Part shown: in pieces, positions 37,552 through 64,000 of the stretch | Numbering within the stretch: position 1 is the first letter of the stretch | Layout of the letters: each line of letters begins with the position of its first letter | Source of the DNA: Alphaproteobacteria bacterium | GTDB lineage: Bacteria; Pseudomonadota; Alphaproteobacteria; UBA8366; GCA-2717185 | Assembly: GCA_040905865.1 (NCBI GenBank) | Contig: JBBDQU010000065.1 | Coordinates: 1 to 64,000, forward strand | Length of the DNA: 64,000 nt | Direction: 5' to 3' | Made by a program: the position numbers and the translations under genes | Notes under the pieces: generated by a model | Databases searched by the model: none | What the model saw: the letters and a program-made list of their open reading frames with translations, nothing else | Told to the model about the DNA's origin: nothing

Positions 37552-37681
37552 TAACAGGCTGCGGAAAAACCCTTCCGACCGAACATCACCGCCGCGCATC
37601 GCAACCTCCCCCCCTAAAATCACAGCGAGACTTGAATCACGACCGCGCACCAGATGGAAGGTTTTTTCCGCAGCCTGTTAG
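37551..37681. mobile_element. 131-bp MITE-like element
   Basis: The element has terminal inverted repeats of 26 bp with one mismatch. The left end starts CTAACAGGCTGCGGAAAAA, and the right end finishes TTTTTTCCGCAGCCTGTTAG. The 79 bp between have no coding capacity. The same end sequence occurs at 37-55, again next to a palindromic repeat. It looks like a non-autonomous transposon relative. The stop codon of the leftward gene at 37678 is formed by its right end. Confidence 0.75.
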
Positions 37682-38769
37682 TAGCGGTAAATTGCGCCGA
37701 CAGCCGTTTCGCCGGGCATTTCTTCAGCCGGAACAACGATAACGTCGCCGCCATGTTTCAGTGTTTCATGCGCTATCCTGTCGATCTCCTCAAGGCCGGA
37801 ATTCCGCCAGTCTTCGGTCAGGAGTAAATTTCCAACCCGACCTTCCGTGGCGGACTTGAGGATCTCTCCCTGCTGTACCGAAACGGTTGCATCGCCGCGC
37901 TGGAAGCCGGCGTTAAAGCGGTCTATCGTCTCCAGTTTCGGTCTGTTCAGTTCCGGCTCGACAATTTCGACGCACGCTTCATGAATTTCACTTTCGTCCA
38001 GACCGACCGGTGACTTGGCTATCGAGTCAGAGGCGAGCTTTGGATACTGGCAATGCCTGCGAAACATTCCAAGCAGGTTCGGTTCGCAGACCGCAACAAG
38101 AGTGGCGGTCTCCTCTGCAAGTATCCGGTCCACCGCATTCGCGACGCCATGGGTGAATTCGTCCAGCTGGACCTGTTGATAGTCAGCCGGGCTTTCCCCC
38201 TGGGCATGATGTTTTGCATCGGGGCGACCGCCGCCGGCGCTGCTTGCAGAGTGAAACCCGACATCCGCCGGAAGTTGGGTTATTCCCCTTATTTTCGCCA
38301 TGCTGTCTTCCATGACCTCGGTTTCAATAACGCTTATTTCATATCGGGTTGCCCTGAAAAGGCAGACGTCCTTCTGATCGATAGCGATGATGAAGAAGGA
38401 TTGCGCGCTGTCGATCAGGGGCATCAAGGGAAGTATATGAAAGGAGTCCTTGACCGCGATATGTTCCGGCGGCGCGATCGGCAAGGGGTGCGTGCGTGTG
38501 AACGCGGCAGAAATAAAAATAGCGATTCCCCGCATGCCGGGGCTGCCAATGGGAAGACGGAAGATTTCATCCCGTTCGGCATATGCAAGAATTTCCGACG
38601 GATCAAATCCGTTGCGTTCGAGGTCTTTTTCCGCATCCCGAATGAGATTCCGAAAACGGATACCGTTCACCTTGTCTTCCGGCGGTATCTGATGAACGGG
38701 AAGATAGATGGATACGGCCGGGTCAGAATCGGCATCGATCAGCGTCATGACATCGGATCTTGTTATCAT
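37678..38769 (-). CDS. baeRF-type (archaeo-eukaryotic release-factor-like) protein
   Basis: The 363-residue protein resembles the bacterial archaeo-eukaryotic release factor families, eRF1 relatives thought to act on stalled or stressed ribosomes. Supporting patches are AVSIYLPVHQ near residue 18, the ILPLMPLIDSAQSFFIIAIDQKDVCLFRA segment near 112-140 and the long C-terminal domain with VAVCEPNLLGMFRRHCQYPKL. The eRF1-type Gly-Gly-Gln tripeptide is not seen. A Gly-rich SSAGGGRPD stretch lies near the middle (about residue 178). GGAG precedes the ATG. The TAA stop is provided by the MITE end, so the C-terminus may be truncated. It follows the SDR-VKOR gene by 56 bp. Confidence 0.65.
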   Translation of the reverse strand: MITRSDVMTLIDADSDPAVSIYLPVHQIPPEDKVNGIRFRNLIRDAEKDLERNGFDPSEILAYAERDEIFRLPIGSPGMRGIAIFISAAFTRTHPLPIAPPEHIAVKDSFHILPLMPLIDSAQSFFIIAIDQKDVCLFRATRYEISVIETEVMEDSMAKIRGITQLPADVGFHSASSAGGGRPDAKHHAQGESPADYQQVQLDEFTHGVANAVDRILAEETATLVAVCEPNLLGMFRRHCQYPKLASDSIAKSPVGLDESEIHEACVEIVEPELNRPKLETIDRFNAGFQRGDATVSVQQGEILKSATEGRVGNLLLTEDWRNSGLEEIDRIAHETLKHGGDVIVVPAEEMPGETAVGAIYRY

Positions 38770-38825: not shown

Positions 38826-41306
38826 TTAAAATACGAACCTGCTCCACTCGCCGTAGCTTTGCCTGACGCGGCCCCGGCGCACGCCAAGGGCGATCAAACC
38901 GGCTCCGCAGGCGAGACTCGACACCATGGCCGACAAATCCGCGCCATAGACAAACGGCGTGATCAGAAGCGCGACGCCAAACGCAATATTGAGAAAGCGA
39001 AGCGGCCGCGCCACCTCTGCGAGGGACGTCACTGTAACCGTAATCACCAGGGCGCCTATAAGGTGGTCGGCGTCCGCCATCCCACCCTGAGTGCCTAAAA
39101 CCAGTCGCGTCAGCATCAACCAGACGCCGATTGCGATGCTTAAACACAGGTTCCACGGCAGCCCGACGCCGCCGCTGACCATTTCCCGGACGACTGTCCC
39201 GGGGCTCTGCTCGAACGTGTCGTCTTTCCGCTCATGGCGACCGTCATCCGTATCGCCGGTGAAGAAGATGCGCATCACATTAGCGCCCGCCTTTCGCCGT
39301 CGAACGAGGAACTGGCCTGTCGCGACAAGTTCGTCCAGGGAATACGGAATCTGGACAAGCATGGCGACGGCTGCGACGAGACAGAGCGTGCACCAGGTTC
39401 CGATGACAAGGGGCTGGATAATGATGAAGGTGATCGAAACGGCGCCGAGGGGAACGATCATGAAGCCGAACAGGACAACGAGCCATGGCATCGTGCGCCA
39501 CCGCCGCGCGGACCCGATAATGCCGGTGAGGATTTCAAGCATGTAAGTGATCGCCCCAAGGCCGGCATCCGAAACCGGCCATGCTTCGGAAACGCTCGAT
39601 GTGATGATTTCCTCGGTACCGTTCATGGGTGACGGTCCGCCCTCGAAAAACGGCTCCCAGACGCTATCGATATGGCCCAGCTGATACGCGGCGAGATACC
39701 GGGAGATAACGAGCCCTATCAGCGCAAGGAAAATGATCGGTGCGCGCTGGAACCAGCTCGACGGCGAAAAATCCCAGCCCGGTGGAACCGTCGGGCCCGT
39801 CAGCGCGGCAACGGCGCTGACTCCCGGCGGCGGGCGCGTCAGAACGGCAAACCCGAATGCCAGCGCGCCCACCAGCGTATCGTTGAGGTACGCGGCCGCT
39901 GTCGGCGCCCAGAAGATCAGCGGCGCCGACATTACCCATAGACCGATTGCCGCCGTAACCCATCGGACCAGGCCGTAGCGTGTGGAAAGGGAAACCAGGG
40001 CGCTCATAATGAGCAGGATGCCGGAAACGAAATCGCTTATCACAAGTGCGGCGGACTCGTAGCCAAGAATTGGGGGCGATGTCGCCAGCCAGAATCCCAG
40101 TCCCATTGTGGCGAAGTGAGCCCAGATGAAGCGACTGTGCGCCTCTCGATTCTGCTCCTCGTGCCGCGCGCGCAGTTTTTCGGGATTGTCGACCTTGCGG
40201 GCCGCCGACTGCAACCAGAGTGGCGCGGTAATGCCGTTCTCTTCGTACCACTGCGCGGGGTCGTCCTTGAGCGCTGTCACGAGTTTCGGCAGTTCGTCGC
40301 CGATCCAGTGCGCCGGGCTCCAGCCGAGAAGTTCCCGCGCGCGCGAAATGTCGAGGGCGTAATGATCGTCGGCCATGTCGATCATGAACGGTCGGATAAA
40401 CGGCGCTTCGCCCTGGTCGATGACATCCGGTACGATCGGTTCGGACTTTTCTTCGAGCCAGGCGCCGACGCGCGCCAGACCTTTCGGCGCCTCGATTGTC
40501 GTCCAGTTTTCCTCTCCATGGATCAGGCGGCCCAGTTCATCCTGCAGCGCGCCGTATCCCATCGCCTCCGGCTCGCCCACGAGAATTGTCGCCTCCGGCG
40601 GCAAATCGTTGCGGCGGTCGACAGCGCGCATGAAGGCGTCGATCATGTCGTCGGTGTGGAGAAAGGACTGCCCGACAAGCAAGTCGCCGGAATAGACGCG
40701 GCTTTTAATGTCGCGCTCGTAAATTCGCGCAATCTGCTGCGATAGCGTGGGCACAGCCATCCGGTCGCTGTAGAGCCCGGACAACCGGAGCAGCAGATAG
40801 GGAATCTCGCCGTGTTCCTCTTCGATGACCTTCTCGGCAGCGGCCTTTGACCGGGGGTAAGCCCACTTCGGCGCCAGGGGGGTTTCCTCGTCGATGCGCT
40901 CGCCCGGTTTGCACGGTTGGTGCACCAGCATCGTTCCGGAAAAGATGAAACGCTCGACGGCAAAATCCTGCAGTCCCTGCAACAGGCGTCGCGTGCCTTC
41001 GACATTCACTGTTTCGTACAGCGGGCTGTCCTCGCCCGTAAAATCGAAATAAGCGGCGAGATGGATGACCGCTGCAATCTTGTTTCCGTACCGCTCCTTG
41101 AATTTGTAAAAGAATAGCGCAACCGACTCGTCGGAGGTCAGGTCGCAGCGCAGATAATCTTCCAGCGAACCGGTCTGTTCTTCATCCAGATCGGATCTGT
41201 CCAGGCCGACGACGCGATATCTGTCTTTCAATGAAGCGCTTAACGCAGTTCCGATCCCTCCCGCAGCCCCCGTTATGAGAACGGTTGGTTTGGTTTTTTC
41301 CGTCAA
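38826..41306 (-). CDS. SDR-SPW-VKOR membrane fusion protein
   Basis: This 826-residue protein fuses several modules. Residues 1-345 are an extended SDR epimerase-like domain (TGAAGGIG at 12-19, catalytic Tyr150 and Lys154 in WAYPRSK). Residues about 395-490 form an SPW-type membrane repeat with SAPLIFWAPTAAAYLNDTLVG. Residues about 520-665 form a vitamin K epoxide reductase-like four-helix domain with the redox motif CTLC at 639-642. A further SPW-like repeat ends the protein (about 735-800). VKOR enzymes pass electrons from disulfide formation to quinones. I see no loop cysteine pair and no thioredoxin domain. The start is TTG with AAGG upstream. An EcfG-type promoter lies 45 bp upstream. 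Confidence 0.8.
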   Translation of the reverse strand: MTEKTKPTVLITGAAGGIGTALSASLKDRYRVVGLDRSDLDEEQTGSLEDYLRCDLTSDESVALFFYKFKERYGNKIAAVIHLAAYFDFTGEDSPLYETVNVEGTRRLLQGLQDFAVERFIFSGTMLVHQPCKPGERIDEETPLAPKWAYPRSKAAAEKVIEEEHGEIPYLLLRLSGLYSDRMAVPTLSQQIARIYERDIKSRVYSGDLLVGQSFLHTDDMIDAFMRAVDRRNDLPPEATILVGEPEAMGYGALQDELGRLIHGEENWTTIEAPKGLARVGAWLEEKSEPIVPDVIDQGEAPFIRPFMIDMADDHYALDISRARELLGWSPAHWIGDELPKLVTALKDDPAQWYEENGITAPLWLQSAARKVDNPEKLRARHEEQNREAHSRFIWAHFATMGLGFWLATSPPILGYESAALVISDFVSGILLIMSALVSLSTRYGLVRWVTAAIGLWVMSAPLIFWAPTAAAYLNDTLVGALAFGFAVLTRPPPGVSAVAALTGPTVPPGWDFSPSSWFQRAPIIFLALIGLVISRYLAAYQLGHIDSVWEPFFEGGPSPMNGTEEIITSSVSEAWPVSDAGLGAITYMLEILTGIIGSARRWRTMPWLVVLFGFMIVPLGAVSITFIIIQPLVIGTWCTLCLVAAVAMLVQIPYSLDELVATGQFLVRRRKAGANVMRIFFTGDTDDGRHERKDDTFEQSPGTVVREMVSGGVGLPWNLCLSIAIGVWLMLTRLVLGTQGGMADADHLIGALVITVTVTSLAEVARPLRFLNIAFGVALLITPFVYGADLSAMVSSLACGAGLIALGVRRGRVRQSYGEWSRFVF

Positions 41307-41350: not shown

Positions 41351-41376
41351 AACGTTCCGGGAAAGAACATTGTTCC
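41351..41376 (-). promoter_or_regulatory. EcfG-type general-stress promoter
   Basis: Read on the minus strand the site is GGAAC-N17-CGTT, the alphaproteobacterial EcfG consensus. The -10 element lies 45 bp before the TTG start of the SDR-SPW-VKOR gene, just beyond the 3' end of the glutathionyl-hydroquinone reductase gene. Confidence 0.75.
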
Positions 41377-41379
41377 GGC

Positions 41380-42414
41380 CTATCGGTCAGCAACCTCACC
41401 GAGGCGTTCGTGTTGGTGTCTGGAGGTGCGAGTCTTCGTGAGCGCATCCCGGCCGTGGGGGCCCTCGAAGTCGATTATCGGTCCGGCGGGCACAATACCG
41501 GTAGGGTCGACCTGGGGCTGACTGGTATAATAATGGCCCTTGATATGATCCAGCCGGACCGTTTCGGCCACCCCGCTCTGTTGGAACAGGTCTCGCGTAT
41601 AGGGCCACAGATTTGCATAGTCCATCAGGCGGCGAAGGTTACATTTGAAGTGGCTGTAATAGACGGCGTCGAACCGGACCAGCGTGGTAAACAGGCGCCA
41701 ATCGGCCTCGGTGATGTTATCGCCCATCAGGTAACGGTTTTCCGATAACCGTTTGTCGAGCCAGTCCAGCGTTTCAAACAGCGGCGCCACGGCTTCGTCA
41801 TAGGCGTCCTGGGACGTCGCAAAACCGGCTTTATAGACGCCGTTATTGACCGTGTTGTACACCCGGTCGTTGATCGCGTCGATTTCGGACCGCTGACTTT
41901 CGGGATAGTAGTCGTGATCGGACGCGCCCAGTTCGTCAAATGATGCGTTCAACATGCGGATGATATCAGCGGACTCGTTATTGACGATCGTGCGCGTATG
42001 CAGATCCAGCAGCACGGGCACGGTGACTTTGCCGGTGTAATCGGGCACGGCCGCGCTGTAGACCTGATGGAGGTAGTCCGCGCCGAAAACTGGGTCCGGT
42101 ATGACGCCGGGCCCGTCCTGGAAACTCCAGCCCTTGCTTCCCATGTGCCAGTGCACCACCGACAGGGAAACGATGCTTTCGAGCGCTTTCAGCCGGCGAA
42201 ATATCAGTGTCCGGTGCGCCCAGGGGCATGCATAGGAAACGTACAGGTGATACCGGTGACGGTCTGCCTCGAACCCCTTCTTCCCCGCGGGACCGGCAGC
42301 GTCACCTGGCGTGATCCAGTCCCGGAGGACAGAATCCGGGCGGTTGAACCGGCCATCGTCGGATTCGGAAATTAGCGATTCTTCACACCATTTCCCGTTG
42401 ACTAACTTTCCCAT
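41380..42414 (-). CDS. Glutathionyl-hydroquinone reductase
   Basis: GS-hydroquinone reductases (YqjG/PcpF type, Xi-class GSTs) use glutathione to reduce glutathionyl-hydroquinones, keeping quinones in repairable form. The 344-residue protein has the class signature YVSYACPWAHRTLI with catalytic Cys63. The WSFQDGPGVIPDP region near 97 and the helical domain RLFTTLVRFDAVYYSHFKCN near 245 complete the match. The C-terminus is about 20 residues longer than usual. GGGAGG precedes the ATG. It lies 64 bp downstream of the aconitase gene, likely co-transcribed, and its quinone chemistry fits the VKOR-like neighbour. Confidence 0.92.
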   Translation of the reverse strand: MGKLVNGKWCEESLISESDDGRFNRPDSVLRDWITPGDAAGPAGKKGFEADRHRYHLYVSYACPWAHRTLIFRRLKALESIVSLSVVHWHMGSKGWSFQDGPGVIPDPVFGADYLHQVYSAAVPDYTGKVTVPVLLDLHTRTIVNNESADIIRMLNASFDELGASDHDYYPESQRSEIDAINDRVYNTVNNGVYKAGFATSQDAYDEAVAPLFETLDWLDKRLSENRYLMGDNITEADWRLFTTLVRFDAVYYSHFKCNLRRLMDYANLWPYTRDLFQQSGVAETVRLDHIKGHYYTSQPQVDPTGIVPAGPIIDFEGPHGRDALTKTRTSRHQHERLGEVADR

Positions 42415-42478: not shown

Positions 42479-44437
42479 TTATGCGGGCGAGGTGCGTTGC
42501 ATGTGGTAGTGGTTGATCAGTCCGCCGGCGCGGATGATTCGGATCTGCCGGGGCGAAAGGACGTGTTTCATGGGTATCGGGACGTCGCCGCCATTGTGTT
42601 CAAGCCGTACCGTAAGCGAGTCCTCGTCCAAGGCCCGCCCATCGAGCCCGGTGAGCCGAATTTCGTCACCGGTCGAAATTCGTCCAAAATCCTCCGGATT
42701 CACGAACACCAGCGGTAATATGCCAAAATTAACCAGGTTCTCGCGATGAATGCGGGCAATGCTTTTTGCGATGACAACACGCAATCCGAGATGCCGGGGT
42801 GCGATGGCGGCGTGTTCCCGGCTGGATCCCTGGCCGTAGTTCCTCCCCGCGACGACGATATGGCCATTTTCCCTGCATTGTGACGCACGCGAAACGTAGC
42901 CCGCGTCCACGCCACCGAACACGAACTCGCTGATCCGTGAAATATTGCTGCGGAACGGCAGGACCCTGGCTCCCGCGGGCATGATTTCGTCCGTGGAAAT
43001 GTCGTCGCCAACCTTGAGCAGGACGCGAAGCGCCATAGAGGAGGGAAGCGGATCGAATGTCGGCATCGCGGTAATATTCGGCCCCTTGACGAGGTCGGTT
43101 TCACGCGCCGCTGTGTCGCTGACCGGCCCGATCAATAAGCTGTCGTCAATAGAGGGGTTCTCCGGCTGCCGAATGTCGACGGGATCGATTCCGAGGTCGC
43201 GCGGGTCGGTTATCGTCCCCTTCAGCGCCGACGCCGTAGCCGTTTCGGGGCTGCAGAGATAGACTCGGTCCTCCCGCGTTCCGGATCGGCCAGGAAAATT
43301 GCGCGGCACCGTTCGCAGGCTTGCGCGCCCCGTCGCTGGCGCCTGCCCCATACCGATACAGCCATTGCAGCCCGTCTGGTGAAGCCGCGCGCCGGCGGCG
43401 ATCAGCGTCGCCAGGCTGCCGTCCCGTGTGAGTTGCAGCAACAACTGCCGCGATGTCGGATTGACATCGAACGATACACGCGGCGAAATTTTCCGGCCCG
43501 CGACCATATGGGCGGGAACGGCGAAGTCGCGGTAACCCGGGTTGGCGGAGGAGCCGATATAGCTTTGGTATATCGCTTCTCCCGCCACGTCCTGAACGGG
43601 CACGACATTGCCGGGGCTCGATGGTTTGGCGATGAGCGGTTCGAGCGCCGATAAATCCATTTCGTCGCTGATATCGTATACGGCGTCCGTATCCGCTTCG
43701 AGCGGTTTCCAGTCGTCCGCCCGTCCTTCGCTTGCGAGAAACCGCCGAACCTCGTCATCTGAAGGAAACACGGACGTCGTGGCGCCGAGTTCAGCGCCCA
43801 TGTTGGCAATGACATGGCGGTCCATTGTGCTCAGACAGTCCAGTCCCGGACCGTGATATTCAATGATCCGACCCATGCCCGCCTCGACCCCGTGACGACG
43901 CAGCATTTCCAGTATGGTGTCTTTTGCGCTGACCCAATCGGGCAGGGCGCCCGTCAGGCGGACGCCCCAGATTTCCGGCATCCGCATATGAAACGGGTCG
44001 CCCGCCATCGCCATCGCCACGTCCAGACCGCCAGCGCCAATCGCGAGCATGCCGAGCGCGCCGGCACCGCAGCTATGGCTGTCGGCTCCCAACATCGTCG
44101 CCCCGGGCTTTCCGAAACGCTGCATATGGACGGGATGGCTGACGCCGTTGCCCGGCGGGCTGAACCAGATACCGTACCGCTGGCAGGCGCTTCGCAGGAA
44201 AAGATGGTCGTCGGGATTCCTGTTGTCCTCCTGGAGCAGGTTATGGTCGACATACTGGGCGGACAGCGCTGTCTTGACGCGCGGAATTTGCAGTGCTTCG
44301 AGCACAAGCATCACAAGTGTCCCCGTCGCGTCCTGCGTCAGGGTCTGGTCGATGGAGATCGCGATTTCGCTGCCTGGAACCGGTTCGCCATCCACCAGAT
44401 GATCGGTAATGAGTTTCTGCGCGAGATTCAGGGCCAT
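42479..44437 (-). CDS. Aconitase-family hydratase
   Basis: Aconitases interconvert citrate and isocitrate through a [4Fe-4S] cluster. The 652-residue protein is of the shorter type. Cluster ligands are Cys123 in GADSHSCGAGALG and the CxxC pair in TGCNGCIGMGQ. The swivelling C-terminal domain contains STDEIMPAGARVLPFRSNI, YGQGSSREHAA and the substrate-binding region up to SIARIHRENLVNFGILPLVF. A near-perfect ribosome site (GGAGGTGAT) precedes the ATG. It is probably a second, stress-associated aconitase, since a housekeeping acnA is expected elsewhere. An isopropylmalate or related hydratase is a less likely alternative. Confidence 0.88.
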   Translation of the reverse strand: MALNLAQKLITDHLVDGEPVPGSEIAISIDQTLTQDATGTLVMLVLEALQIPRVKTALSAQYVDHNLLQEDNRNPDDHLFLRSACQRYGIWFSPPGNGVSHPVHMQRFGKPGATMLGADSHSCGAGALGMLAIGAGGLDVAMAMAGDPFHMRMPEIWGVRLTGALPDWVSAKDTILEMLRRHGVEAGMGRIIEYHGPGLDCLSTMDRHVIANMGAELGATTSVFPSDDEVRRFLASEGRADDWKPLEADTDAVYDISDEMDLSALEPLIAKPSSPGNVVPVQDVAGEAIYQSYIGSSANPGYRDFAVPAHMVAGRKISPRVSFDVNPTSRQLLLQLTRDGSLATLIAAGARLHQTGCNGCIGMGQAPATGRASLRTVPRNFPGRSGTREDRVYLCSPETATASALKGTITDPRDLGIDPVDIRQPENPSIDDSLLIGPVSDTAARETDLVKGPNITAMPTFDPLPSSMALRVLLKVGDDISTDEIMPAGARVLPFRSNISRISEFVFGGVDAGYVSRASQCRENGHIVVAGRNYGQGSSREHAAIAPRHLGLRVVIAKSIARIHRENLVNFGILPLVFVNPEDFGRISTGDEIRLTGLDGRALDEDSLTVRLEHNGGDVPIPMKHVLSPRQIRIIRAGGLINHYHMQRTSPA

Positions 44438-48990: not shown

Positions 48991-49016
48991 GGAACCGTTT
49001 ACGTCAGGGTTTCGTT
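48991..49016 (+). promoter_or_regulatory. EcfG-type general-stress promoter
   Basis: GGAAC-N17-CGTT on the plus strand, 100 bp upstream of the antiporter gene. Together with the divergent site 62 bp away it forms a back-to-back pair in a 336-bp intergenic region that otherwise shows no gene. Confidence 0.78.
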
Positions 49017-49115: not shown

Positions 49116-50174
49116 TTGGAAAAGGTTGTGGGAAATTTCGAGTCGTTAAGCCTTTCCGGCAATAGTCTGATATTCGCCGGAGCGGCTGTCGCGGTCTGGA
49201 TCGCCGGAACGAAAATGGCCAAATATGCCGACGAAATCGCAGACCGTTCGGGTATTGGCGAGGCTTTGATCGGCATCTTTCTTCTCGCCGGGGTCACCTC
49301 CCTGCCGGAGATCGCAACCAGCTTTACCGCGGCGCAGAGTGGCGATGCGCCGCTCGCCATCAACAACCTGCTCGGCAGCATTGCCATGCAGGTCGCGGTT
49401 CTCGCCGTGGCCGACCTGATCTACGGCAAGAGCGCCCTCACGTCCATCGTTCCCAATCCCGTCGTTATGCTGCAGGGCGCGCTCAACATATGTCTGCTCA
49501 CGTTCGTCGCGGTCGCGGTCGTCGTCGGGGATTTCGCGGTATTCGGAATCGGCATCTGGTCGTGGGGTCTCGGACTTGGCGCCCTGTACAGTTTCAAGAA
49601 GCTCGTGGACGCAAGGGGCAGGAAGCCCTGGATCGCCAACCTTGGCGACGATAAACCTGGCGATGCCGATGAAAGGCAAAAAGAGGACTATGGCAGCCTG
49701 TCCCTTTTGATCGTCAAGACATTGATCGCGGGGGTGACTATTTTACTGGCCGGATTCTTCGTCGCCCGCAGCGGGGCGGCGCTCGCCAATCAGACCGGGC
49801 TCGGTTCTTCCTTTATGGGCGTCGCATTTGTCGCCATCGCGACGTCCCTGCCGGAAGTAAGCACGGTATTTGCCGCCATGCGCCGCGGCCTCTATACCAT
49901 GGCGATTTCCGATATATTTGGAACGAATATTCTGAATGTAGCGCTCATCGTCGGGGTCGACGCCATTGCACCCGGTCCGCCTGTGCTGGATCGTGTCGGT
50001 GAATTTTCGATTATCGGCGCCTTGCTCGGCGTTGCCGTCACCGGCATTTTCCTCATTGGCATAATCGAGCGGCGGGACCGGACAATCGGGCGAATGGGCG
50101 TCGATTCGGCCGCAGTCCTGGTGACATATGCCGGGGGTCTGGTGCTTCTGTTTTCAATGCGGCATGCCGTGTGA
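49116..50174 (+). CDS. CaxA-type sodium/calcium exchanger family protein
   Basis: Members of the Ca2+/cation antiporter superfamily exchange Ca2+ for Na+ or H+. The 352-residue protein has about ten membrane helices in two homologous halves. Each carries an alpha-repeat motif: GVTSLPEIATSFTAAQSGD with NNLLGSIAMQ in the first, and AIATSLPEVSTVFAAMRRG with SDIFGTNILN in the second. The Glu residues are the ion ligands. The start is uncertain: TTG at 49116 or GTG at 49128, both with weak ribosome sites. It stands alone on the plus strand behind an exact EcfG-type promoter. Confidence 0.88.
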   Translation: MEKVVGNFESLSLSGNSLIFAGAAVAVWIAGTKMAKYADEIADRSGIGEALIGIFLLAGVTSLPEIATSFTAAQSGDAPLAINNLLGSIAMQVAVLAVADLIYGKSALTSIVPNPVVMLQGALNICLLTFVAVAVVVGDFAVFGIGIWSWGLGLGALYSFKKLVDARGRKPWIANLGDDKPGDADERQKEDYGSLSLLIVKTLIAGVTILLAGFFVARSGAALANQTGLGSSFMGVAFVAIATSLPEVSTVFAAMRRGLYTMAISDIFGTNILNVALIVGVDAIAPGPPVLDRVGEFSIIGALLGVAVTGIFLIGIIERRDRTIGRMGVDSAAVLVTYAGGLVLLFSMRHAV

Positions 50175-53099: not shown

Positions 53100-53124
53100 A
53101 ACGTCCAATAGCGATGCCGGTTCC
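53100..53124 (-). promoter_or_regulatory. EcfG-type general-stress promoter
   Basis: On the minus strand the site is GGAAC-N16-CGTT. The -10 element is 83 bp upstream of the PLD-VTT start, with no other gene between. Confidence 0.75.
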
Positions 53125-56395: not shown

Positions 56396-56608
56396 ACCGG
56401 GACTATTCGGGACCATGGGGGATATAACGGGATTCGGATCGACTCTGAGATGCTTCTCAAAGGGCCATTAAATGGCAATTACGCGTCGGTCAAACATGCC
56501 CGTTTCGTCGCGCCGCGCTGGCGATGAAACGCCTGGCGATATCCGGTATCGCGCTGGCCTTTCTCGGAGCCTTTTGAAGCGGCTCTGAGAGGCGTCTCGG
56601 AAGCGTCG

Positions 56609-56965
56609 TCAGTGGATCGAAGGGCCAGCCCTGCGCCCCTCACCGGAGGCCGTCAACTGCTCCTTAAAGCGCGAACCTTGCTTGCTCTCAAAGTAGCACG
56701 CCCATAGATAAAGTCTCACTTCCAGAAGCTGGTCATCCACTTCAAGCGGCGCAAACACACCGTGCATCCGGCTGGCAATGCGATGCGCGGCAGCCAATAG
56801 CGGCGGCACAGGATCGTTTTTCGGGCCGCTGCCGAAGTGCCACATCCAGAGATAACGCCGGGCATCGTCAAGCGCACGGTCTGCGTCCAGCAATGTCATG
56901 CCCGCGCATTCCTGCGCCAGCTCGACGGCGAATGCCGGGAAGCCGTCGAGCTGATCTTTGTCCAT
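56609..56965 (-). CDS. Phage element hypothetical protein
   Basis: The 118-residue acidic, mainly helical protein contains DADRALDDARRYLWMWHFG and DDQLLEVRLYLWACYFESK, with no family recognised. The ATG at 56965 is preferred because GGAG lies just upstream. It is the last gene before the element end, downstream of the capsid gene by 132 bp on the same strand. It occupies the position where Mu has its tail and late accessory genes. It could be a small head-associated or accessory protein. Confidence 0.5.
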   Translation of the reverse strand: MDKDQLDGFPAFAVELAQECAGMTLLDADRALDDARRYLWMWHFGSGPKNDPVPPLLAAAHRIASRMHGVFAPLEVDDQLLEVRLYLWACYFESKQGSRFKEQLTASGEGRRAGPSIH

Positions 56966-57097
56966 GGTCCGCTCCGAATAGTCGTCTGTATCGTTCACGA
57001 TGGCGCTGCTTTCAGTTTCGAGCGCCGCCGCCCTGCGAAGGGATGAAGACAGGACGGCGGCACCCGACGCGGGGGAGTCGAGGCCCGCGCGTTGGTG

Positions 57098-58903
57098 TCA
57101 GGTGACCACGGCCTTGTATGCGCCGCGATAATCGGTGACCGCCCCGCCATAGATATGACGGATCTTGTAGGTGACCTGGTCATTACTGAACATGGAGCCC
57201 AAACTCGGGTGATCCTGGACGAACAGCTCCGGCTCTTCCTGGCCGGAAAGGAAGCCGACTTCCACCGGCGGCAGGTCGTTCACATCCGTCGTCAGACACC
57301 AGTCGTTGCTGTCGGTCCAGTACCAGACCGGAATAACGTCGAGGCTGAGCGACTGGATGAAGTTGTGGTCCTGCTCGGTATTGCGCCGGAACAAATCGAC
57401 GGCCGTTTCCTCAAGCGTATCGGGCACCCAGAGATTGCGGGGACCGAGGCCGATCTTCTCCCCGGAATCCATTTCGACCTGGTTCTTTATCGCGAGCCGT
57501 CCGGCCGCCAGCGAACCGGTACCCAGCGCCGTCGATCCCAGGTTTCCATGATCGCCGTGGAAGAAAGCGATATCGTCGTAGATCACCGGATTGGTCCTGA
57601 GAAAGTCCAGGACGAACTTTGACAGGGTCCGCTTGGCCGCGCGCACAAGGTTGCGCGGAATACGCTGGACGGCGCCCACGTCGTCGTTGGTGATCATTTC
57701 CAGCGTGAGACTTTCCGTGCCGCCGCGCTTGGCGATGGCATAGACGGCCTTTTCATCGGTCGGAGAACTCAGCGCCAGGTACGGGTCGCTTTCGTCAACG
57801 ACAGGCAGATCGCCATAGCCGCCGAAGCGCGTCCGCTGCTGCTCCCGGAAGTCGGCGACCGGAACAACGTTGGCGAGCTTGCGCCACACATCGTAGATCG
57901 TCTCGTTGGCATACTCCTTGAGGATGCGCCGCGCGATGCTGTCGCCGAGAACTTCGGTGAAGCTTCCGCTGTCGAGCGCTTCGGTCATCCGCCCCTGGTC
58001 GCAGTTGCGATACAGGCCGGTAAAGTTACGGTCGCCGGTGACACTGAGATAGACTTCGCGGATTGACCGGACGGAACGGTCGGCCGGATCGAAAAAAGCG
58101 TCCAGCATCTTCTGCACCTTGTCGCCGCGCCCTTCGATCAGGCGAACGTCACGGCGATCACCCGCGCCATCCCCCAGGCCTGTGACCTTGCCGCTATCCG
58201 AGACTGAAGCGAGATAGTCGGCTTCGGTACTGATCGCTTCGCGAAGCTGCGCTTCGGTCAAGTCTTCTGTCACGTTGTGATGCGCGATCAGTTTCGTCTT
58301 CGCCGGTTGCGGCAACCTGGTCGCCTCGACGATCCGTCGCACGTCGGCGCCGGTCAGGAATTCATCTTCGTCCATGCTCTTGCTTCCCTTGCTCTCGATG
58401 AGGTTGAGGACCTGTCCGCCGGCGCCCGGCTCGACAATAAGGTCCAAGGAATTGACTTTCTGAACCCGCCGCAATATCCGCACGGGTTTCCCCTCTATGG
58501 CGCCCTTCACCGACACGCACATTGCATCGATGGAAAACCCGAACAGATCTGTCATGCCCCGGTCCCAGGCGGCCTTGATCTTGCGACCGATCACGCCGTC
58601 CGGCTCGATCAGATCGAGCGTGCCTTGCAGCTCTCCCGCATCGGGACCATTGCCGGCCACAAAGGCGGTTTCGGACAGGCGGCCGATCAGGTTGCGCACA
58701 TCCTTGCCAAGGCCCTTCAGGTGTTCCTGGTCGCCCTTCACGAAAACCCTTGCGCCGTTGAACAGCGAGGCGGCTTCCATGAGCGCCTGGTCGGAGTAGA
58801 AGTTGCCGTTGCCGGACAGGCCGGCGCGGATTATCCGGATGCGCCACCGGCCCCGGTATGCGGTGCCGTCTTCCGGCTGAATAATGATTGCGTCGTCATC
58901 CAT
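57098..58903 (-). CDS. Prohead protease-major capsid protein fusion
   Basis: The 601-residue protein has an N-terminal prohead-protease-like region (about 1-190): RIIRAGLSGNGNFYSDQALM, SLFNGARVFVKGDQ, then FGFSIDA. A variable linker follows. The C-terminal major-capsid-like region (about 260-601) includes FTGLYRNCDQGRMTEALDSG, SLTLEMITNDDVGAVQRIPR and VPVWYWTDSNDWCLTTDVND-type late segments. Fusions of this kind occur in Mu-like phages of alphaproteobacteria. The frame is intact. GGAG precedes the ATG, 3 bp after the Mor-like gene. It is the only structural gene in the visible element. Confidence 0.78.
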   Translation of the reverse strand: MDDDAIIIQPEDGTAYRGRWRIRIIRAGLSGNGNFYSDQALMEAASLFNGARVFVKGDQEHLKGLGKDVRNLIGRLSETAFVAGNGPDAGELQGTLDLIEPDGVIGRKIKAAWDRGMTDLFGFSIDAMCVSVKGAIEGKPVRILRRVQKVNSLDLIVEPGAGGQVLNLIESKGSKSMDEDEFLTGADVRRIVEATRLPQPAKTKLIAHHNVTEDLTEAQLREAISTEADYLASVSDSGKVTGLGDGAGDRRDVRLIEGRGDKVQKMLDAFFDPADRSVRSIREVYLSVTGDRNFTGLYRNCDQGRMTEALDSGSFTEVLGDSIARRILKEYANETIYDVWRKLANVVPVADFREQQRTRFGGYGDLPVVDESDPYLALSSPTDEKAVYAIAKRGGTESLTLEMITNDDVGAVQRIPRNLVRAAKRTLSKFVLDFLRTNPVIYDDIAFFHGDHGNLGSTALGTGSLAAGRLAIKNQVEMDSGEKIGLGPRNLWVPDTLEETAVDLFRRNTEQDHNFIQSLSLDVIPVWYWTDSNDWCLTTDVNDLPPVEVGFLSGQEEPELFVQDHPSLGSMFSNDQVTYKIRHIYGGAVTDYRGAYKAVVT

Positions 58904-58906
58904 GGG

Positions 58907-59344
58907 TCAGCTCCGGTCGGACGAAGGCGAAGCGCTTGGCGGCTGCGCCGGGATATCGACGTCAAACGAACGCAGATAAGACCTGATGTGGCGCACGTAT
59001 CGCATGGTCACGCCACTCCGCCGCGCGATTTCCAGAACACTGTACTCGCCCCGCAACAGGTCATCGACGATTTGACTTTTTTTCGCGGTTTCACGGGGAG
59101 GCAACGGGATATCGATCTTCTGCCCGGCCATGACCGCGACAAGTTTCTCGAAGTTCTCGTTGCCGACGACATCCCGTAAATCACAGTTTTTTCCGGCGTC
59201 AGCCGGCACGCGAACATCCTCCACGCCCCCGAAACGCTGGCAAAGAAGGTTCGTCGCGTGGAAGCCGATGACTTCGGCCAATTTCATGAACTGGGAGCAG
59301 TAGAAAATCGTTCGGGAGTGCAGCAAGCCCCTATCCTCCGCCAT
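58907..59344 (-). CDS. Mor-like transcription activator
   Basis: Mor/C proteins activate middle and late transcription in Mu-like phages. The 145-residue product has a central dimerisation-like part (AEVIGFHATNLLCQRFGG). A segment QKIDIPLPPRETAKKSQIVDDLLRG leads into the helix-turn-helix GEYSVLEIARRSGVTMRYVRHI (about residues 97-118), the order found in Mor. The ATG at 59344 has no strong ribosome site; a second in-frame Met lies at 59287. It is separated from the early genes by a palindrome-rich region and reads straight into the capsid gene. Confidence 0.6.
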   Translation of the reverse strand: MAEDRGLLHSRTIFYCSQFMKLAEVIGFHATNLLCQRFGGVEDVRVPADAGKNCDLRDVVGNENFEKLVAVMAGQKIDIPLPPRETAKKSQIVDDLLRGEYSVLEIARRSGVTMRYVRHIRSYLRSFDVDIPAQPPSASPSSDRS

Positions 59345-59492
59345 GCAAGCCGGATCATGTCCGGTTTTGACAGGGAAATCGCCCCGGAACAGTTCCGGGC
59401 AGTTATCGAGGAGGGGATTGAAACGCCGTCATTGCGCTCGCAGCGGCGGCGTGGCAAGTCCGGACACGGGATATGCTGAATCCGTGATCGTC

Positions 59493-59541
59493 AAAGCGCA
59501 GCGACTGCGCTTTGGTCGGCAGAGCGCAACGACTGCGCTTT
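59493..59541. repeat. Tandem pair of 21-base hairpins
   Basis: AAAGCGCAGCGACTGCGCTTT (59493-59513) is a perfect 9-bp stem with a CGA loop. AGAGCGCAACGACTGCGCTTT (59521-59541) is a near-identical copy 28 bp further on. Confidence 0.7.
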
Positions 59542-59592
59542 GCCTGGCTGGCGATCCATAAGCTATTCTCCGCCTCGCGCCCGGATAGAGAT

Positions 59593-59624
59593 TTTTCAGA
59601 ATGACCTCGTTGTCATTCTGAAAA
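59593..59624. repeat. Perfect 13-bp inverted repeat
   Basis: TTTTCAGAATGAC pairs exactly with GTCATTCTGAAAA across a 6-base loop (CTCGTT). The T-run precedes and the A-run follows the stem on both strands, which is wrong for a terminator. An operator for a dimeric regulator is more likely. Confidence 0.65.
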
Positions 59625-59724
59625 TTCGCGGAGCGCCGGTCGCCGGCGTAAATCCGAGCAATCGCTTTCCTGGCATTTATAAATTGATTTCCGGCTTCCC
59701 GGTGTCATGGCGTAGGATCAAGCC

Positions 59725-59889
59725 ATGCCTTTATCCAAGAAGATCTCCCTTTTTTGTTTCGCAATGGCGACCGCCGTCGCTTGGGCCGCAGTGGTCACTT
59801 GGCTATTCGGCTTTGGGCTTGTCGGATTCACGATCTGCTTGTACATCGGCCTTTGGCTCGCACCGCATTGCCTGGCCGATTACGGTTGA
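59725..59889 (+). CDS. Small membrane protein encoded against the phage operon
   Basis: The 54-residue product starts MPLSKKISLFCFAMATAVAW and has two hydrophobic segments (about 8-27 and 30-47) with little space between. A basic N-terminus suggests it faces inward. AGGA lies at good distance before the ATG. It is the only plausible rightward gene of the element. Possibilities include a lysis, superinfection-exclusion or toxin-like peptide. The sequence gives no specific match, and it could be chance. Confidence 0.4.
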   Translation: MPLSKKISLFCFAMATAVAWAAVVTWLFGFGLVGFTICLYIGLWLAPHCLADYG

Positions 59890-60177
59890 CGCCGCCGGAG
59901 TCCCGCGCAATCGCGTTTCCAGCGTTCAATTTTGCGTTTGAGGAAATTCCGGGTATCTCCGGGCCATGAGCGGGAGCTGGTCACCAGCGGCGATCCTCGC
60001 GCGATTATGGCAGTAACGCCGATGCAGCTATCCTGGTTGTTCGGGCCGCAGGACAGATAACCGGCCCGGCACCTCTTTTGAATACCCATTAAGAGCCGAT
60101 AAGAGGGCGTGGAAGCGTGGACTCCGCTTTTCGGGTACGTGGGAGCGCGGCAAACCGAATGACGCCCTCCCACGCGC

Positions 60178-60429
60178 TCAGTTCGCGTCGTCGTCCAGGC
60201 CACGAGCGCGGCGGTATTCTGGTGTCGTTTTCCAGTACCTGTGAATGGCCGAACTTGAAGGCGAGCGCTCAGGCCCAAAGCGTTCGCGGCAGGCGTCACC
60301 CAGCGCCGCGAACGTCATCACAGGCAGATTCTTTTCGATGAATTCGCGAACCTCGGCATCGCGTTCGATCTTTGACGCGATGCCGGGAAGATGCAGACGG
60401 CGCCGCTCTTCTTCACTGTATATTGTCAC
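60178..60429 (-). CDS. Small phage protein, possible DNA-binding
   Basis: The 83-residue basic protein has a predicted helix-turn-helix-like stretch: MTFAALGDACRERFGPERSPSSSAIHRYWK (about residues 38-67, with SSSAIHRYW as the putative recognition helix). It begins with GTG and overlaps the gemA stop by 17 bp. Its position after gemA, before the palindrome-rich region, suits an early-to-middle regulatory role. No family is recognised with confidence. Confidence 0.6.
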   Translation of the reverse strand: MTIYSEEERRRLHLPGIASKIERDAEVREFIEKNLPVMTFAALGDACRERFGPERSPSSSAIHRYWKTTPEYRRARGLDDDAN

Positions 60430-60838
60430 GGCGTGCTTTCCCCTTCTTCATGGCCTTCAAGGCCGTGATTGCCTTCGGCGCATCCTGCGCCGTCAGGAAC
60501 CGGAGCGCGGATATATGGAAGGTCCGGTCCAGCCATTTGCCAAGCGATGCGTCGTCACCCTTGCCGTCCGTATACTCGGTCCAGAGTTTGCGGATCAGCC
60601 CGACCTGGCTCGGGCTCGCCCTGCCGGGCCGGTGGCCGAAAAAGGACTCGGTGAAGCCGGACTTGAAACCCAGCGCCGCAAAATACTGCATGACGGCCTC
60701 GAAGCCGTAGCCGTCCAGCTCGCTGCACGATTCAACCCCGGCCGTTTTCGCCAGGACTCCGCGGTATTCATCTTCCGTGAGCGCGAGCTGCTTCTTCGCA
60801 ATGTGGACAAGGGCGGTCTGTTTTCTACTGAGGGACAT
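60413..60838 (-). CDS. gemA: GemA-like regulatory protein (Mu gp16 family)
   Basis: The 141-residue protein matches the DUF1018/GemA family of Mu-like phages, in which GemA modulates host gene expression and DNA topology. Diagnostic segments are LVHIAKKQLALTEDEYRGVLAKTAGVESC-like residues near 10-38, the FTESFFGHRPGRASPSQVGLIRKLW stretch near 61-86 and FLTAQDAPKAITALKAM near the end. It overlaps its upstream neighbour by 14 bp. Its presence firmly places the element in the Mu-like group. Confidence 0.85.
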   Translation of the reverse strand: MSLSRKQTALVHIAKKQLALTEDEYRGVLAKTAGVESCSELDGYGFEAVMQYFAALGFKSGFTESFFGHRPGRASPSQVGLIRKLWTEYTDGKGDDASLGKWLDRTFHISALRFLTAQDAPKAITALKAMKKGKARRDNIQ

Positions 60839-61097
60839 CGCGCGGCTCCATCCCCTTGATTTCGAGTTCCAGCCTTTCCAGCTTCTCGATGGTATCCTTT
60901 GTTATGGCTTCTATTCCCGCCAACAGGGCGCAAATGTTTTCGCGCTGAGCATCGAGCATGCCGTCGCGGGCGACCATCATATCACCGGCAATTTCATCAG
61001 CCAGAGCCGCAAGGTTTTGCACCTTGGTAACGGAAAAGCCGACATCGCCAATTTTGTGGCCAAAGCTGTTCAACCTGTTTTTGTCAATGCCACTCAT
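60825..61097 (-). CDS. Small helical phage protein (paralogue pair, second)
   Basis: The 90-residue protein is almost wholly helical: KVQNLAALADEIAGDMMVARDGM, then ENICALLAGIEAITKDTIEKLERLE. It resembles its upstream neighbour (VRNLALLAETLAGEMCIED) in order and spacing, so the two are probably tandem duplicates. It overlaps both neighbours by 4 and 14 bp. No family is recognised. A coiled-coil role in early phage functions is inference. Confidence 0.7.
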   Translation of the reverse strand: MSGIDKNRLNSFGHKIGDVGFSVTKVQNLAALADEIAGDMMVARDGMLDAQRENICALLAGIEAITKDTIEKLERLELEIKGMEPRDVPQ

Positions 61098-61360
61098 GAC
61101 GCTTCACTCCCTTCCGTCTTTCTTAATTCGGCTTCCATATTGTCCAGGGCATTTGCTGCCCGTTCGGCTATTGCGCCGATTCCGGAATTGACGGCCATTA
61201 CCAAGTCGCGCTCGGTTCTAAGAGAATTGTCTTCGATACACATCTCACCCGCCAGGGTTTCCGCCAGAAGCGCAAGATTTCGAACCTCATCAATGGCGGT
61301 GCCGATGCTGAATATCATATCGACGATTTCACGCATCGTTACTTGCGCGGGTCCACTCAT
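61094..61360 (-). CDS. Small helical phage protein (paralogue pair, first)
   Basis: The 88-residue product has the pattern IGTAIDEVRNLALLAETLAG, then RTERDLVMAVNSGIGAIAERAANALDNMEAEL, matching the neighbour at 60825-61097 in layout. Start and stop overlap the flanking genes by 4 bp each (ATGA), indicating translational coupling within the early operon. Its function is unknown. Confidence 0.7.
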   Translation of the reverse strand: MSGPAQVTMREIVDMIFSIGTAIDEVRNLALLAETLAGEMCIEDNSLRTERDLVMAVNSGIGAIAERAANALDNMEAELRKTEGSEAS

Positions 61361-62082
61361 TGCCCGTCTCCCAGCGACATTGACGCTTCTTTCAACGTGG
61401 CCAGCGTGACCGGCCCGCCCTTTCCCGCGATGGCCAGAAGCTTGCCGACATACCGCAACCCGGCATGAATGCTGTGGCGCTCCAGGAATGCGACCGCCTT
61501 CCTGTCGGTTACGCCATGATGCCTGGCCAGGGCCGCGATATCGGAATAGGTCGATTCGTCCAGGAACAGCTTCGGGCCGATCCGCGACGTGAATTGGGCG
61601 AACGACGCCCTTTTTGTGTTGTTGTACCGGTTCCGCAGCGTGTGGTTTCCCGCGAAGACAATCGGCAATCCCGTCTCATCGTTTACGCAACGCAACGAAT
61701 CCAGCGTCAGGTCGTTCAGGTGCTGCGCTTCATCGATAATCAGCAATTCCGGGCCTTGCTGCCATTCGGTCGCGTTGCACATGACGTGATGAATTTCCGC
61801 AGCCCGTTGGGGCGAATACCCGGTCAACGCCTTGCAGATCAGTTGCAATGCCGCCGACATGGACGCCACGGCCGGGTTCATCAGGCAGTATCGCGTATTC
61901 GGGTTTTGCTCCCTGTACCAGCGCAACGTTGTCGTCTTGCCGACGCCAGGCGCGCCGACGATAAGGCCGATATCGCGGAGTTCGCGTGTCATTTCGAGAA
62001 CCCGGATGATATCGGTGGCAGTCGGCGTTTCACAAAAACCGGGATCGCTTCTCCGGTTGAAAAAATCGATGACTTCCGGCAT
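61357..62082 (-). CDS. MuB-like transposition ATPase
   Basis: MuB is an AAA+ ATPase that selects target DNA and activates MuA. The 241-residue protein carries Walker A GAPGVGKTT (residues 43-51), Walker B LLIIDEAQ (113-120) and a sensor-like NHTLRNRY stretch, the TniB/MuB type. The C-terminal helical part ends with LATLKEASMSLGDGQ. GGAG precedes the ATG. It is downstream of the transposase by 57 bp. Confidence 0.88.
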   Translation of the reverse strand: MPEVIDFFNRRSDPGFCETPTATDIIRVLEMTRELRDIGLIVGAPGVGKTTTLRWYREQNPNTRYCLMNPAVASMSAALQLICKALTGYSPQRAAEIHHVMCNATEWQQGPELLIIDEAQHLNDLTLDSLRCVNDETGLPIVFAGNHTLRNRYNNTKRASFAQFTSRIGPKLFLDESTYSDIAALARHHGVTDRKAVAFLERHSIHAGLRYVGKLLAIAGKGGPVTLATLKEASMSLGDGQ

Positions 62083-62139
62083 ATCATTCTCCTGCTTAGA
62101 GACGGCCTTTTCGGGGCCACAATGGAGGGCGGCCGGCTG

Positions 62140-64000
62140 CTACCGCGCCGCCCTCCGGTTTTTCGACTTTCCTAAAAACTTGTCGCTGGCGTCGCGAAAC
62201 GCCTGGCGATCCGCCTCGGCTTGCGCCCGCTCGATGGCCTTGCGTTCACCGGGCGTTGCGGCCATGTCCCTGCCGATAGCCCGCATGGTGTCGGAAAGCC
62301 GTATTGTCCCGGCGCTTTCGGGAACCGGCGCTGCATCCGCGCGTTCCGCCAGGCGCTTCAACTCTGCCCGCATATCGACGGGATCTACATCGCCGCGCAT
62401 TTCATTGATGGCCCGGCGGTTGACGCTCTGCCGTTTCGCGGCCTCCCTGGCGCCGGCCGGATCGAGAATATCGAATGCAACATCGGGCACGGCCAGGCCT
62501 ATGTATTTTTCATGCCGGTCGCACACGGCAAGCTGCGACAGGTCACCTGAAACCGGTACCCGGATATATATTTGTGTGCCGGCCGGAAGCCGCTGGATTT
62601 CGCGGGATGTATAGGAAACGTTGTTCAGGGTGAACGCGCCCTGGCTGACTTTCCGCGACACGGTCCTGGCAAATACGGCGCGCAGCGCTGTCTCTTCAAT
62701 ATCCATGCGCTGCCAACCGGCTTCGACGGCTTCCGCAAATTTCTGACGCGGCGATAATCCGGCGAGAAACCCCGATTGCGGCGTTGTCTCGTATGCCGCC
62801 AGGGCGTTCGCCAGGTCCTCCCGGAAACGGTGTTCGCCATGAGGATACGGCTTCGGTTCCCTGCCGACATTGGCGGTTTTTTTCTTCATTCGGTTGCCGC
62901 CAATCCATCCCGGCAGCATCGAGAATACGCCGCCTTCCAGGACACCGAACCCGCCTTCGATTGCCTTCGCCGGGGCATTGTAGGGCCGCGCCTTGATGAT
63001 CGCCGAAGAACGCGCCCGAAATATCTTCGCCAGCTCGGGGTCCGAGTCCAGGTGACGGATCGTCGTATTGAGCTGCATTGCGTCGTCGATAAGGCCGGCC
63101 CAGTTGTATTCGCCGCCGTTGTCCAGATAGAGGTTTTGCGGCATGCCCCATTCGGGATGCAGCGCCATGGCAATAACTGATTCGACGACATGCTCCTGGC
63201 GGACGCCTTCGCCCTTCTTCAGGAAAACCGGCCAGAAAAAGAACCGGTTCGTCGCCAGATCGTACCAGGCAACGAGTTTCGGCGTGAACGTCCCGCCGCC
63301 AGGCCGGGGCAGGAGGATATCGATAGGGTGAACGTCACCGACGACGATATCCATCGGAAGCCGCCCGTCGCGGCTCCGCTTTATCCGTGGCGCCGACCTG
63401 TCGAAATGGCGTTTCCGGTCCTTGTCATATATTGCAATTTCACGATAGGGCCGCGCGGCTTCCACGAAGGGGCGGCTCACTGTGCAAATGGCTCTGAGAC
63501 GCCTTTTATCGGTGTCGTAACCGGCGTCTAAAGTCTCTTCATACAAGGTCTCGTTGGCGAAACGCGCGATCCACTGCCAGCCGATAGACAGGTTTTCCGC
63601 AAAGAACGACCGCGTTTTGCGCTGTACCGTTTCGGCAATCCGCGCCTTCGTAGCATCATCGAACGGAACGCCGTCGCTCCATGTCCGGCTGATGAAGACC
63701 CGGCTCGCGCCTTTATCCGACCGCTGGCGATCCCGCAGGCCGGCCATGCCCCCGGCTTCGTAGTCCCGAATCCAGCGCCGGATCGATTTTGCGGAGACTG
63801 TCGCATAGCGCCCGCTGGGCCAGGCTACGGACTTCCGCGACAGGCGCTCGATAGTTTCCGAACGCTCCGCTGTTCGCGCCGGATGCTGCAAAGCGTCCTC
63901 AATGACGCCATACCGCCAATGCGCTGTTTTCGAGTGCTGGCTGACGATCTGGACCGGGCTGTCATCCACTACGGGTACCAGCGCCTGGGCATGCCAGGCG
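62140..64000 (-). CDS. Mu-type DDE transposase (5' end beyond the window)
   Basis: The frame is open through the right edge. The in-window GTG at 63969 is not necessarily the start, because in-frame codons before it encode WHAQALVPV without a stop. Counting from that GTG, a helix-turn-helix region lies near residues 55-80 (SAKSIRRWIRDYEAGGMAGL). The catalytic triad is likely Asp212 (GDVHPID), Asp283 (YLDNGGE) and Glu338 (AIEGGF), spaced 71 and 55 residues. This is close to MuA (67 and 56). The Mu-type C-terminal beta-barrel follows, and a basic tail (KFLGKSKNRRAAR) ends the protein. Confidence 0.9.
   Translation of the reverse strand, partial: AWHAQALVPVVDDSPVQIVSQHSKTAHWRYGVIEDALQHPARTAERSETIERLSRKSVAWPSGRYATVSAKSIRRWIRDYEAGGMAGLRDRQRSDKGASRVFISRTWSDGVPFDDATKARIAETVQRKTRSFFAENLSIGWQWIARFANETLYEETLDAGYDTDKRRLRAICTVSRPFVEAARPYREIAIYDKDRKRHFDRSAPRIKRSRDGRLPMDIVVGDVHPIDILLPRPGGGTFTPKLVAWYDLATNRFFFWPVFLKKGEGVRQEHVVESVIAMALHPEWGMPQNLYLDNGGEYNWAGLIDDAMQLNTTIRHLDSDPELAKIFRARSSAIIKARPYNAPAKAIEGGFGVLEGGVFSMLPGWIGGNRMKKKTANVGREPKPYPHGEHRFREDLANALAAYETTPQSGFLAGLSPRQKFAEAVEAGWQRMDIEETALRAVFARTVSRKVSQGAFTLNNVSYTSREIQRLPAGTQIYIRVPVSGDLSQLAVCDRHEKYIGLAVPDVAFDILDPAGAREAAKRQSVNRRAINEMRGDVDPVDMRAELKRLAERADAAPVPESAGTIRLSDTMRAIGRDMAATPGERKAIERAQAEADRQAFRDASDKFLGKSKNRRAAR

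Follow-up and report, generated by a model that had tools for sequence, protein, structure and literature searches.

A single gene in the window, the 64,000-nucleotide stretch of alphaproteobacterial DNA analysed here, encodes a protein that joins an extended SDR to an SPW repeat domain, a VKOR domain and a second SPW repeat domain. We tentatively read this SDR-SPW-VKOR-SPW fusion, with a little less than even confidence, as an accessory, horizontally spread and stress-induced oxidoreductase of the inner membrane, in which the VKOR bundle would bind a quinone. A widespread VKOR family with one cysteine pair, together with its conserved members that have none, would reveal what else the VKOR fold does, and the natural CxxC/SxxA and fused/split forms offer material for direct tests. 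The fusion is, moreover, a common gene of mobile stress-tolerance and copper-resistance islands that has so far apparently gone unstudied.

A preliminary description, made from the letters alone, had proposed that SDR, SPW and VKOR parts are joined in one protein, and both the open reading frame and Pfam bear this out (Table 1). The open frame spans 840 codons, and the start codon is TTG. The epimerase profile PF01370 covers residues 9-243 (E 1.4e-26), and VKOR PF07884 covers residues 523-656 (E 5.6e-24), scoring 85.2 bits against a curated cut-off of 27.5. SPW PF03779 matches two stretches at 51.2 and 45.6 bits (cut-off 31.5), the second placed near residues 719-808. Compared with SPW repeat proteins (PF03779), the fusion likewise has units over the cut-off, but its two units flank a VKOR domain. 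The residues Tyr150, Lys154 and CTLC 639-642 sit exactly at the positions first given for them. A chance or assembly join is excluded because 26 full-length homologues, at 50-64% identity, share the domain order.

Table 1. Positions of the fusion gene, its parts and neighbouring features within the window
Feature	Position	Strand	Remarks
Whole fusion gene SDR-SPW-VKOR-SPW	38826..41306	(-)	826 aa; full length kept in relatives
Extended SDR domain, residues 1-345	40272..41306	(-)	Pfam, Foldseek, residue counts, topology; predicted NAD-type, cytosolic
SDR catalytic Tyr150-x3-Lys154, with Thr125 as third member	40845..40859	(-)	
SPW repeat domain 1, residues 395-487, 4 TM	39846..40124	(-)	Profile and topology
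VKOR domain, residues 523-656, four-helix bundle	39339..39740	(-)	Pfam, fold, Foldseek
Acidic outer loop, residues 541-580 (predicted)	39567..39686	(-)	0 Lys/Arg, 7 Asp/Glu; holds invariant Ser570 and Asp580
CTLC redox motif, residues 639-642	39381..39392	(-)	
SPW repeat domain 2	38883..39152	(-)	SPW profile
baeRF-family/ribosome-hibernation-factor-like gene	37678..38769	(-)	Directly downstream of fusion, same strand
EcfG-type (general stress sigma) promoter-like site	41351..41376	(-)	45 bp upstream of fusion gene
GST of glutathionyl-hydroquinone reductase type, CPWA motif	41380..42414	(-)	Pfam
Accessory aconitase	42479..44437	(-)	Also beside split SDR/VKOR/SPW operon in planctomycetes
EcfG-like site	48904	(-)	About 500 bp before PDH E1
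EcfG-like site	48991-49016	(+)	100 bp before Na/Ca exchanger
Na/Ca exchanger family protein	49116..50174	(+)	Recurs beside relatives
EcfG-like site	53100 to 53124 region	(-)	83 bp before phospholipase D/VTT gene

The full-length AlphaFold model (pLDDT 70.7, pTM 0.56) is usable in its SDR part. Its VKOR region, with pLDDT mostly 40-60, is too weak for judging domain packing, and the VKOR part was therefore folded alone with 31 diverse sequences. The resulting model (pLDDT 90.3) displays four long helices, with the CxxC located where helix 4 begins, and its best 14 Foldseek matches in the PDB are without exception VKOR structures, from human, fish and Synechococcus, with modest E-values (best 1.4e-3). 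Searching the PDB with the VKOR domain sequence gave nothing useful; the VKOR matches came from the fold search alone. The preliminary description had named failure of the CTLC region to form a four-helix VKOR bundle as evidence that would speak against it, and the region folds as such a bundle. The bundle, the helix-4 CxxC, the loop serine and PF07884 are common to the fusion and Synechococcus VKOR (PDB 3kp9/4nv5). In contrast to the latter, the fusion has neither a loop cysteine pair nor a Trx domain, is joined to SDR and SPW domains, and has its CxxC sometimes replaced by SxxA.

The distribution of charges fits a 12-helix arrangement in which the SDR, the turn at 599-605 and the linker at 661-713 lie on the inner side, and the acidic loop at 541-580 and CTLC on the outer side. 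The SDR is predicted to be cytosolic and the CxxC to lie on the outer face, which would place the two active sites on opposite faces of the membrane.

VKOR and DsbB are generally taken to act via two cysteine pairs. The fusion protein contains one pair, and the Pfam scan found no Trx domain within it, in agreement with the preliminary description, which saw no thioredoxin module. Cys43, Cys51, Ser57, Cys132 and Cys135 are described as fully conserved in VKORs (PMC4555120). When a canonical four-cysteine VKOR is aligned with the protein by profile (E 5e-5, probability 67), Glu555 and Thr564 fall at the loop positions Cys43 and Cys51, so that the loop pair is indeed missing, as first noticed. 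The same alignment equates Ser57 with Ser570, which is invariant in 31/31 sequences, and the helix-4 pair Cys132/135 is matched by CTLC. The missing loop pair, together with the CxxC replacements described next, makes it unlikely that the protein runs a classical DsbB/VKOR relay of four cysteines.

The remaining pair is itself not universal. Of 50 sequences, 41 retain CxxC, very distant members from archaea and planctomycetes among them, and the other nine have SxxA; a single cysteine was never seen. Loss of CTLC across homologues had been put forward as grounds for doubting the original proposal, and it has occurred in part, the pair having gone in 9/50 sequences in about three events. The tree requires three CxxC/SxxA changes, as do trees across the 5-95% range of the bootstrap. 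The cysteines were thus probably lost three times as a pair, with fewer losses possible on well-supported branches alone. In the VKOR region, dN/dS of SxxA pairs (0.07-0.17) is near that of CxxC pairs (0.02-0.09). Pairwise loss under continued purifying selection indicates that some lineages can do without thiol chemistry, and a redox role of the CxxC cannot be the single obligatory function of the family. With the loop cysteines absent and CxxC replaceable by SxxA, disulfide chemistry is not a universal function. The invariant non-cysteine residues are Ser570, Asp580, Arg602-Trp603, Pro607-Trp608 and Gln631.

The SDR half carries all the motifs of an extended SDR, namely TGxxGxxG, Asp36 after strand 2 and Tyr-x3-Lys. 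Residue counts show Asp36 to be invariant, and Foldseek matches of the SDR, taken from the full-length model, are UDP-sugar epimerases, dehydratases and L-threonine dehydrogenases. The site had been called apparently active, and its Tyr/Lys pair is intact in 55/57 relatives. Two loci that hardly differ from each other, G339 (L088:3478-6168) and Cupriavidus (L135:8929-11496), have lost it, their Tyr and Lys being changed to Leu/Met with the remainder of the protein kept. The SDR resembles GalE-type epimerases, L-threonine 3-dehydrogenase and HpnA in its Rossmann fold, TGxxGxxG and Thr-Tyr-Lys, but differs from GalE and HpnA in scoring far under every NCBIfam equivalog cut-off (GalE, HpnA, RmlB and others), with 51.5 bits against 262 needed for GalE and 44.8 against 368 for HpnA. 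Within the window's branch, identity is about 70-83% for the VKOR domain versus 54-67% for the SDR.

A search for the same fusion elsewhere, which the preliminary description had suggested, recovered about 28 genome loci and 117 nearly full-length plasmid records, so that a fusion unique to this genome is rejected. The genome contigs hold 26 full-length loci, one frameshifted and one split, in Halomonadaceae, Nitrosomonas, Sphingomonadales and other hosts; the sample of relatives is uneven, with many Billgrantia. A Halomonas socia copy (L047:5974-8441) is frameshifted, its matches falling in two frames. The 117 plasmid records belong to 137 matching ones, annotated as 'vitamin K epoxide reductase family protein' or 'NAD-dependent epimerase/dehydratase family protein'. 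Six of 398 sampled genomes of the phylum carry the fusion, a seventh match (G103) being an ordinary VKOR-DsbA protein, and it was found in none of the other 11 examined genomes of the same family. The fusion is sporadic, mobile and plasmid-borne. Laboratory strains carry it too, among them S. meliloti 1021 on pSymB and Alteromonas macleodii MIT1002 on a plasmid. The open-access literature searched contained no paper on the SDR-SPW-VKOR-SPW fusion and none with 'SPW repeat', and the gene thus appears to be annotated in databases yet unstudied.

SPW-VKOR-SPW proteins without this SDR occur in haloarchaea, Candidatus Manganitrophus (Nitrospirota), Stutzerimonas and planctomycetes. The parts can also be encoded separately. 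In Rhodopirellula, three consecutive open reading frames that almost overlap encode the SDR, the VKOR (CFLC) and one SPW-like protein, and two further genomes (G593 and G650) share this SDR-VKOR run. An SDR gene adjoins a VKOR-SPW gene in G586 and precedes an SPW-VKOR-SPW gene in Pontibacter. The retained adjacency of separate SDR, VKOR and SPW genes supports a shared function.

The more distant members, which form a sister branch, are found in a metal-resistance context. All 12 annotated plasmid loci examined for them, chosen from a ranked list and counted from the deposited annotation, have copper, mercury or arsenic genes, or a four-helix copper protein, in their vicinity. The Thiogranum member (L049:409-3453) contains three heavy-metal-binding HMBD domains between the SDR and the first SPW. 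DsbA/TlpA/DsbE/CcdA genes adjoin sister-branch members in Salipiger and Aquibium, and in Sphingobium yanoikuyae the SxxA form is located inside a copper island. Sister-branch loci often also carry GH15 and classical SDR genes. At L133, L134, L135, L142, L143 and L088, a GH15 (trehalase-like) glycosidase, a classical SDR and SPW-VKOR-SPW stand together beside metal genes, a set common to haloarchaea, Nitrospirota and Proteobacteria.

In the oxidoreductase reading that we prefer, a NAD-type extended SDR precedes a predicted 12-helix membrane part consisting of SPW, the VKOR four-helix bundle, which would bind the quinone, and SPW. In most members, the CxxC may hand thiol electrons straight to the quinone with no loop-cysteine shuttle, the electrons presumably being supplied by an outside thiol or thioredoxin-fold partner. 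The SDR may catalyse a NAD-linked reaction on a substrate of its own, either cytosolic or carried in the membrane, in which case the two sites would be physically joined and not electrically coupled through protein thiols. The protein would serve in general stress in the window's branch and in copper/mercury stress in the sister branch. A quinone-binding oxidoreductase with an optional thiol step appears to fit best. Against this reading count the paired loss of the CxxC, the missing loop cysteines and those relatives that have no SDR or a catalytically inactive one. It is possible, at lower confidence, that the VKOR part works without thiols altogether, chiefly as a quinone/isoprenoid-binding module whose task would be to offer a membrane lipid to the SDR or to sense the quinone state, the CxxC being optional. 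The replacement of CxxC by SxxA as a pair, the low dN/dS that follows it, the invariant non-cysteine residues and the presence of an SDR in most members, either fused or as a neighbour, would all agree with such a module, but the CxxC is retained in most sequences, the very distant ones included, and the SDR is missing at several loci. With similar reserve, we consider that a branch of the VKOR superfamily may have departed from disulfide chemistry, forming an SPW-flanked quinone/isoprenoid module coupled to a NAD-dependent SDR with an optional CxxC; bacteria and archaea alike would carry such a branch on mobile islands of stress and copper resistance.

The metal genes around the sister branch, the HMBD domains of the Thiogranum member and His-rich linkers raise the unlikely alternative of a metal-handling membrane protein, whose CxxC would be a Cu(I)/Hg(II) ligand and not a redox pair. 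However, the window's branch sits outside metal-resistance clusters at the loci examined, SxxA occurs in a copper island too, and the VKOR fold sets the CxxC at a quinone site. We consider it quite unlikely that the protein is a sugar-nucleotide or sterol-like SDR enzyme with the membrane part merely as an anchor. The closeness of the SDR fold to UDP-sugar epimerases and the largely intact Tyr/Lys would suit such an enzyme, but the membrane part is the better conserved one in the window's branch and has SDR-less versions in archaea, Nitrospirota and planctomycetes, and the SDR active site is lost at two loci. A classical disulfide-forming DsbB/VKOR enzyme with a fused SDR is very unlikely, even though the VKOR fold and the CxxC are there: the loop pair is missing, the CxxC is not universal and the distribution is sporadic. 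DsbB shares with the fusion the idea of a membrane four-helix thiol oxidase but belongs to another sequence family. The window's own genome, moreover, encodes a separate DsbB and DsbAs, so that the fusion is not the housekeeping disulfide oxidase, a role that the sporadic distribution rejects as well.

Returning to the preferred stress-related oxidoreductase, the surroundings of the window's gene can be compared with those of its relatives. A quinone-linked role had been proposed from the adjoining glutathionyl-hydroquinone reductase. This neighbour is present at no other locus searched and, not being conserved elsewhere, is weak evidence for such a role. The aconitase and the Na/Ca exchanger, by contrast, both recur beside relatives across phyla. 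In two planctomycetes, an aconitase sharing 62-64% identity with the window's comes after the split operon, and at a third locus the aconitase lies no more than 20 kb away. The window's aconitase is an accessory copy, as its own genome has other aconitase-family genes. Na/Ca exchangers lie near relatives in Novosphingobium, in Rhodopirellula and at three other planctomycete loci, and in Sulfitobacter indolifex the exchanger is 5 bp downstream of the relative. A conserved gene order forming one operon is rejected, since just the aconitase, the Na/Ca exchanger and PDH E1 recur. Hsp20, YfdX, DUF308, K+ efflux and cls genes, which make up part of the transmissible locus of stress tolerance, also occur in the stress islands of some relatives; the text of the paper on that locus mentions no VKOR or epimerase gene (PMC8290217). 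Unlike that locus, the surroundings of the window gene showed no Hsp20/YfdX-type chaperone genes.

Because of this stress-island context, we searched for the EcfG promoter motif (GGAAC-N15/18-CGTT). It occurs seven times in the window versus 2.8 expected, four of these within intergenic gaps of the island. With the relatives' start codons being approximate, a site lies within 300 bp upstream in 5/21 alphaproteobacterial relatives and in 0/26 others, the chance expectation being 0.6% per locus. These motif matches suggest that the window's island may be under general-stress regulation. EcfG regulation is not universal, as many alphaproteobacterial relatives are without a site.

The island has a G+C of 0.587 versus 0.627 for the sequence to its left, and third-position G+C of the baeRF-like gene is unusually low (0.60). 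From about 56600 to 64000, the window holds genes resembling a Mu-like prophage, judged from the starts of their open reading frames alone. Several relatives (L083, L084, L045 and L076) have genes for non-homologous end joining, of the Ku and LigD type, in their neighbourhood.
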